Assembly: GCA_002721995.1 (NCBI GenBank) | Contig: PBMF01000025.1 | Location: forward strand, 120,964 to 184,963 | DNA from: Chloroflexota bacterium | Lineage (GTDB): Bacteria > Chloroflexota > Dehalococcoidia > Lucifugimonadales > UBA3495 | Direction of reading: 5' to 3' | DNA: 64,000 nt | Shown here: positions 13,520 to 15,134 of the stretch, piece after piece | How the letters are laid out: each line of letters starts with the position of its first letter | How positions within the stretch are numbered: the stretch's first letter is position 1 | Translations under genes and position numbers: made by a program | The notes under the pieces: generated by a model | Seen by the model: only the letters and a program-made list of their open reading frames with translations | The model's database searches: none | What the model was told of the DNA's origin: nothing

Positions 13520-14873
13520 ATGCTGACCGCCGAGCAGAACGAGAGAATCACACGTGTAGGGCCCGGCACTCCCATGGGTGAGTTGATGCGCCGGTACTGG
13601 ATCCCCATCCGCCCCCTGGCCCAACTCCTGGATGAAAAGGTCATGCCGGTCCGGATCCTGGGCGAGGACCTGGTCCTGTTCCGGGCCAAGAACGGTGACA
13701 TGGGCCTGGTCGGCGAGTATTGCCCCCCACCGCATGGTCCAGCTCAAGTACGGCTTCCCCGGCGAGAACGGCATCCGCTGCTGCTACCACGGCTGGATGT
13801 TCGACGGCACCGGCCAGTGCATCGACACCCCCATGGAGGCCAAGGGTGGCACCTTCAAGGACCAGATAAAGATCACCGGATATCCGGTCAAGGAACTGGG
13901 CGGACTGGTCTAGGCCTACATGGGACCCGACCCGGCCCCCCTGCTGCCGCCGTGGAGCCTGTTCGTCTTCCCCAACGCCATCCGGCAGATCGGTGTGGCC
14001 GAACTGGCCTGCAACTGGCTGCAGTGCCACGAGAACACCGGCGACCCGACCCACAGTGCCTACCTCCACGGCCACTACTTCAAGTTCCTCCTGGAGCAGG
14101 AGGGCAAGCTGGACGAGCGGGCCGGTGACGAAACTACACACACCCTCTACGGGCGCATGAAGCTGGAGGAGGGCATCGAGTCCCTCTGGGTGAACGGCAC
14201 CGAATACGGGATGGAGAAGGGTCTCAACTACCTGAAATCCCTGGGCGCCGCCGAGGACCATCGGTCCCGGCATTCCACGGTGATCTTCCCCTTCTACACC
14301 CAGACCGGCGGGCCCAACCGGCCCCGTCAGGAGTATCAGATCCGGGTGCCCATAGACGACACCAACACCTACCACATCAACTACGGCTGCTACATCGCCC
14401 CGCCCGAGATTCCCCTGGAGGAGCAGGAGACCATTCCCTGGTATCAGGTGCCACTGTACCACGACGACGGCCGGCCCATGCTGGACTTCGTCCTGGCCCA
14501 GGACGCCCACGCCTGGATATCCCAGGGCCCGATCACCGACCGCACCAAAGAACACCTGGGCCGCACCGACGTGCCCATAGCATTCATGCGCCGTCAATTT
14601 GAGGAGCAGATGGCCATCGTAGAGGACGGCGGCGAGCCCATGAACGTCTTCCGCGATCCGGCCACCATGCCCGACCTGATCCATGGCGGAAAATGGGACA
14701 TGAAGGACTCGGCGGTCATCGGCATCCGCCGGGGTGTCTCCAATTTCCGCACCGCCTATCACAAGGGCTACGGCATCGACGACGCCGACCGCTACGGCCC
14801 GGCCATGCCCCAGATAATCGACATGATGCGGCGGATAGAGGAGTTGGGAAACTCCCCCACCCCCGGTGATTAG
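13520..14873 (+). pseudogene. Rieske [2Fe-2S] aromatic-ring oxygenase alpha subunit (phthalate-dioxygenase-like), frameshift plus nonsense codon
   Basis: Frame 1 gives MLTAEQNERITRVGPGTPMGELMRRYWIP...GLVGEYCP, then frame 2 gives CPHRMVQLKYGFPGENGIRCCYHGWMFDGTGQC..., then TAG 13911-13913 in GGLV*AYMGPDPAPLLPPW, continuing in-frame to 14873 (ENTGDPTHSAYLHGHYF, etc.). Confidence 0.85.
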
Positions 14874-14900: not shown

Positions 14901-15033
14901 CGTAGGGGCAGGTTTCCAACCTGCCTCGTTTCATTGCAGGATTGTTCGGTGGGATGTGCCAGGTCCCGGTACATTCGTGTTCCAGTGAGGTGCGTTATTG
15001 CGAGGCCAGGGCGGGTTGGAAACCCGCCCCTAC
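14901..15033. repeat. REPIN-like element: two inverted copies of a palindromic REP-type hairpin
   Basis: Left arm cgtaggggcaggtttccaacctgcc; right arm ggcgggttggaaacccgcccctacg (reverse complement cgtaggggcgggtttccaacccgcc). Each arm is itself a hairpin (ggcaggtt-tcc-aacctgcc; gcgggtt-gga-aacccgc). Confidence 0.75.
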
Positions 15034-15134
15034 GCCGTGGCGTATCGGCTACACAGGCACAGGCACAGGCCAGGCTGGGTTACGTGCTATTATTGGGCCG
15101 CCAACCAATTACTGGACATAAACGGAGGACCACC

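Follow-up and report, generated by a model that had tools for sequence, protein, structure and literature searches.

A GTAG-tagged REPIN in the genome of an uncultured Chloroflexota bacterium whose assembly contains no detected RAYT gene

The closest described systems are the REPINs of Bertels & Rainey 2011 (PMC3116915), the GTAG-tagged REPs of Di Nocera et al. 2013 (PMC3733652) and the TnpA-REP transposases of subclass 2.4 (RAYT group 4) of Quentin et al. 2018 (PMC6006769). GTAG-tagged REPs comprise 24 families, and Chloroflexi are already among their hosts; hybrid dimers of different GTAG families have been described, and REPtrons have been deleted from some REP-bearing species (PMC3733652). 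In subclass 2.4, REPs were reported in 2018 to lie in frame within the transposase genes themselves (PMC6006769), and the chemistry of mobilisation is known from the literature on other TnpA-REP proteins (PMC8266576). Here, an element of this type is described in a window of 64,000 nucleotides (the whole stretch of DNA that was analysed) from a metagenome-assembled genome of a Chloroflexota bacterium (G000; 2.57 Mb, 50 contigs, 88.1% complete, 5.67% contamination).

The element (positions 14902-15033, 132 bp) lies between two genes transcribed in the same direction: it begins 29 bp past the stop codon of a Rieske oxygenase gene, and its end is approximately 100 bp short of the Amidohydro_2 gene start. 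In the register of its family, the left REP (14902-14926, plus strand, GTAG tag at 14902-14905) carries the hairpin GGGGCAGGTT-TCC-AACCTGCCT, and the right REP (15009-15033, minus strand, GTAG tag at 15033-15030) carries GGGCGGGTT-TCC-AACCCGCCC and matches the family consensus, GTAGGGGCRGGTTTNNAACCYGCCC, exactly. Both are 25 nt long, with GTAG ahead of a 9-10-bp stem and a TCC loop of 3 nt, so that GTAG at the 5' foot of the palindrome, the defining feature of the GTAG REP superfamily, is present in each arm and lies outermost, in a head-head arrangement. The spacer between them (14927-15008) begins with CGTTTCATTGC. A preliminary description of this DNA had reported two inverted palindromic repeats, each folding on itself, around some 80 bp, and both statements were borne out: the arms of the inverted repeat (14901-14925 and 15010-15034, 25 nt, 84 nt apart) are 92% complementary, the spacer between the REPs measures 82 nt, and each arm has its own hairpin (14907-14914/14918-14925 and 15009-15017/15021-15029). 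Either arm folds by itself, and the entire element folds into one long stem that is markedly more stable than its shuffles (RNA fold -70.2 kcal/mol, z = -6.3; DNA fold z = -4.0). No Rfam family matched the window at gathering thresholds, and a local search of the window found no exact pair besides this one. The same description had placed the doublet between a Rieske pseudogene and the amidohydrolase gene; the position is right, but the term pseudogene is unproven, since the gene is split by a single apparent frameshift, at six consecutive C (13722-13727), and in a metagenome-assembled genome this is indistinguishable from a sequencing error. The congener homologues of this gene read through.

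Genome-wide, a degenerate REP pattern with at most three mismatches gave 73 raw matches in the source genome and none for a reversed-pattern control. Because many palindromes match on both strands, the raw matches were reduced to 59 distinct, non-overlapping REP sites on 29 different contigs, a reduction made inside fetched stretches scanned with at most five mismatches (patterns were run at one, two or three mismatches in searches and at up to five in scripts, the thresholds varying during the work). The base preceding GTAG is C in 48 of these sites. Twelve head-head doublets, defined as a plus site followed by a minus site with starts less than 140 bp apart (a cut-off picked after the spacings had been seen), take in 24 of the 59 sites; their start offsets are 125, 109, 111, 129, 110, 112, 110, 107, 77, 112, 111 and 111 bp. 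Nine of the twelve thus have starts 107-112 bp apart, while random placement of 59 sites would, by a hand estimate, yield well under one such pair. Mean mismatch is similar in paired arms (0.96) and other sites (1.14). These counts, spacings and orientations answer the check proposed in the preliminary description, for which a unique motif, or one occurring mostly as singletons, would have spoken against a REPIN; neither was found, with 24 of 59 sites in doublets and at most 12 more near a second hairpin, leaving about 23 of the 59 that under the thresholds applied have neither kind of partner. Taken together, the folds and the genome-wide counts demonstrate that the doublet in the window is not a chance arrangement.

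The two arms of the element differ at position 9 of the REP, the left being of an A subtype (CAGG) and the right of a G subtype (CGGG), a difference previously read as compensatory change. The genome-wide comparison did not support that reading: eight of the twelve own-genome doublets, the one in the window included, have A in one arm and G in the other, and in the congener G002 the same form was found in 14 of 14 doublets obtained by fetching 18 stretches, which were partly selected around A-type arms and from which at least one G-G pair (contig C26, starts 220 bp apart) was left out. The left arm in the window is of the same subtype as the left arm of the G002 REPINs. Since the difference is common to most copies, it marks two REP subtypes and is not a compensatory mutation that arose at this copy.

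A second hairpin, REP-B (GTGGTTCGACAGGCTCACCATGAGCGG), which is unrelated to the GTAG REP (REP-A), has 22 matches with at most three mismatches in the source genome. Within 140 bp of 12 REP-A sites lies an inverted REP-B-like match (at most six mismatches), offset by 66-74 bp in 10 of the 12, the weakest of these matches, with six mismatches, being doubtful; by eye, GTAG is kept at the REP-B end in only about three of the 12. Candidate pairs, most with offsets near 70 bp, include C45:43044-43449, C7:129680-129780 and C20:105-200 of the source genome. It is conceivable, though on balance doubtful, that these form a second doublet class of true hybrid REPINs, with a GTAG REP opposite a REP-B hairpin usually about 70 bp away. 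If so, a single transposase may act on two kinds of end, or working elements may arise by recombination between two REP families.

To examine whether such doublets are mobile, syntenic loci were compared between the source genome and its congeners. On contig C43, where both flanking genes are conserved, a doublet is absent from five of the six congener loci with both flanks in the fetched DNA (L182, L184, L185, L186 and L187), while G001 (L183) has one in the corresponding gap; on contig C20, two doublets of the source genome have no counterpart in any of seven congener loci. Congener orthologues of the genes on either side of the tested copies are about 80% identical. For the copy in the window, a search of the congeners yielded no clean empty site. 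The equivalent gap of G001 and G002 contains one gene more, and its GTAG palindrome, next to the Rieske gene, is a different one; the insertion boundaries of the window copy are therefore unreadable. The extra gene lies on the minus strand between the Rieske and amidohydrolase genes and is short-chain-dehydrogenase-like (a name given from reading the sequence); it is missing beside the REPIN in the window (15034-15083).

Spacers were also compared. The doublets of G002 have homologous spacers (mean pair score 14.9, as against -6.9 for shuffled sequences, sd 0.4), and a profile built from 11 of them, three divergent ones having been dropped after the alignment was viewed, matches the window element end to end (43.9 bits, E = 1.1e-12), whereas a spacer-only profile gave no match to the window copy. 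Among the 12 own-genome doublets, spacers score 1.6 on average (shuffled, -5.2) and their interiors, after a 12-nt trim set once, -2.5 (shuffled, -5.4), indicating a likeness above that of shuffled sequence, much of it at the spacer ends. At its start, the window spacer is similar to the left end of the spacer in other copies, and its remainder has no demonstrable homology. The homologous G002 spacers and the presence or absence of doublets at two syntenic sites indicate that the doublet as a whole is the mobile unit.

The preliminary description had noted that no RAYT gene lies in the window, which holds, and had suggested a genome search for a Y1_Tnp (PF01797) RAYT gene. That search returned no match in the assembly; a profile of four RAYTs likewise matched nothing, and no other Y1_Tnp protein was found in the assembled source genome. 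The usual partner of a REPIN, a RAYT encoded in the same genome, was thus not detected in G000; because loss of the REPtron from REP-bearing species has been published (PMC3733652), this leaves the status of the element as a REPIN intact. With the four-RAYT profile, RAYTs were found in 25 of 99 genomes (the source genome among the 99), including the congeners G002, G006 and G007. In G002, an identical REP lies about 100 bp upstream of the RAYT gene, in frame within it and just downstream; in G007, the same REP lies upstream and a slightly changed copy (GTANGGGCGGGTTTCCGACCCGCC) within the gene. The arrangement known from subclass 2.4 REPtrons, cognate REPs in the flanks and an in-frame REP between the HuH and Tyr motifs, is therefore found in G002, and in G007 with the changed copy. 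The congener RAYTs carry the motifs PNHVH, WQ and YIxxNP, in agreement with the published table for subclass 2.4 (PMC6006769); they score above the cut-off of Pfam Y1_Tnp, match NCBIfam REP_Tyr_transpos at E ~1e-19, with a score that falls short of the 80-bit curated cut-off, and have, by sequence, a TnpA-REP (PDB 4er8) as their sole match among solved structures.

About half of 30 RAYT loci contain an internal GTAG...CTAC or GTAG palindrome between the HuH and Tyr motifs; such palindromes are often the same as the flanking copies, and their core differs from RAYT to RAYT. In the RAYT genes of related genomes (L036-L065), these in-frame palindromes occupy one place and have lineage-specific cores. 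They were considered as a new phenomenon, which was rejected because exactly such REPs are described for subclass 2.4 (PMC6006769). One core was followed across genomes: GCAGCATGCTGC occurs in seven of the 99, including all three that carry it in a RAYT (G047, G078 and G097, two of which are of one genus), with counts that include the copy inside the RAYT gene, and this distribution supports a putative cognate link between a RAYT and its internal palindrome core. Exact REP matches amount to 58 of 84 listed in G002, where a RAYT was found, and, where none was found, to 16 of 73 in G000 (at a laxer threshold) and 33 of 50 in G001. Given the exact matches of the RAYT-less G001, these figures lend no support to a simple dependence of REP quality on the presence of a RAYT. 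Exact REPs also occur in scattered phyla (Chloroflexota, Proteobacteria, Geobacter, Cyanobacteria, Planctomycetes and others), often as one copy per stretch listed.

Altogether, the element in the window is very probably an ordinary GTAG-type REPIN, moved in trans by a RAYT of subclass 2.4 (group 4) that is now lost or unassembled. As such it would be a non-autonomous mobile element, two inverted GTAG-tagged palindromes around a spacer; in single-stranded DNA, such as that of the lagging strand, each arm would fold into a hairpin whose foot is GTAG. By analogy with its relatives, a RAYT/TnpA-REP (REP-associated tyrosine transposase, HuH family) would recognise this hairpin, cut, and re-join the element elsewhere; the cutting and joining chemistry proposed for this particular REP follows that of other TnpA-REP proteins. 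The repeat family, the doublet architecture and its spacing, syntenic presence and absence, and RAYT-REP linkage in two congeners are all directly supported, and of the earlier proposal of a REPIN mobilised by a RAYT, the REPIN architecture stands. As no RAYT was found anywhere in the assembled source genome, mobilisation by such an enzyme is inferred from related genomes; that one of subclass 2.4 (group 4) moved the window copy is suggested by the congener sequences. For the same reason, the REPs are probably what remains of a population whose RAYT was lost, or else the RAYT gene is in the unassembled portion of about 12%. Counting against the overall reading are the RAYT-less assembly, a window spacer that by itself has no recognisable homology, the sites that are unpaired, and the lack of a clean empty site.

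Other explanations fit parts of these data. An ancestral, immobile regulatory RNA or DNA hairpin, whose long stem downstream of the Rieske gene would end or stabilise the upstream mRNA, accords with the very stable RNA fold, with the position between the Rieske stop and the amidohydrolase start, and with the GTAG palindrome of different sequence that follows the same gene in G001 and G002. However, the stem is not followed by a U-run, most congeners lack the same element at other syntenic sites, and raw REP matches range from 0 to 626 per genome within one family, so an immobile hairpin is an improbable account; a secondary, co-opted regulatory role is possible. Far the most raw matches among the 99 genomes, 626 (305 forward, 321 reverse), occur in G014, a 3.4-Mb genome of the same family.

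Inverted-repeat ends at a preferred spacing would fit a MITE of another transposon family, with a DDE transposase and terminal inverted repeats, that happened to hold palindromes; yet each arm here is itself palindromic, unlike typical MITE ends, and the GTAG-tagged hairpin ends are identical to those flanking the G002 RAYT gene, which makes this origin very unlikely. The contamination of the assembly might raise the suspicion of an assembly or binning artefact (repeat collapse or foreign contigs), but the spread of REP sites over many contigs, the abundance of the same REP in congeners and the congener orthologues of the flanking genes leave it scarcely credible. The identification as a REPIN is supported by the GTAG head-head doublets, their copy number and spacing, presence and absence between genomes, and the REPs around and inside the congener RAYT genes.

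The element is a genuine, ordinary REPIN that opens no new mechanism; all of its parts, REPs inside RAYT genes included, were described earlier (PMC3733652, PMC3116915, PMC6006769), and the lineage, the fixed A-arm/G-arm heterodimer and the possible hybrid pairs are new but minor details. It extends the known RAYT-REPIN system to an uncultured Chloroflexota genus, whose members with and without a detectable RAYT could serve to measure, by comparison, how REPINs decay once a RAYT is lost. Like the REPINs of Bertels & Rainey 2011 (PMC3116915), these elements are dispersed inverted REP doublets with a spacer and a preferred spacing, with REPs near RAYT genes, here in congeners; unlike them, they are fewer (59 sites, 12 doublets), pair two arm subtypes and reside in an assembly without a RAYT. 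The GTAG foot, short loop and head-head (HH) dimers are those of the GTAG-tagged REPs of Di Nocera et al. 2013 (PMC3733652). The congener RAYTs, in turn, resemble TnpA-REP subclass 2.4 (RAYT group 4) of Quentin et al. 2018 (PMC6006769) in their NHVH, WQ and YIxxNP-like motifs, their flanking REPs, their in-frame REPs between the HuH and Tyr motifs and their 'double foot' GTAG...CTAC palindromes; nothing essential differs, the congener members being those of an uncultured Chloroflexota lineage.
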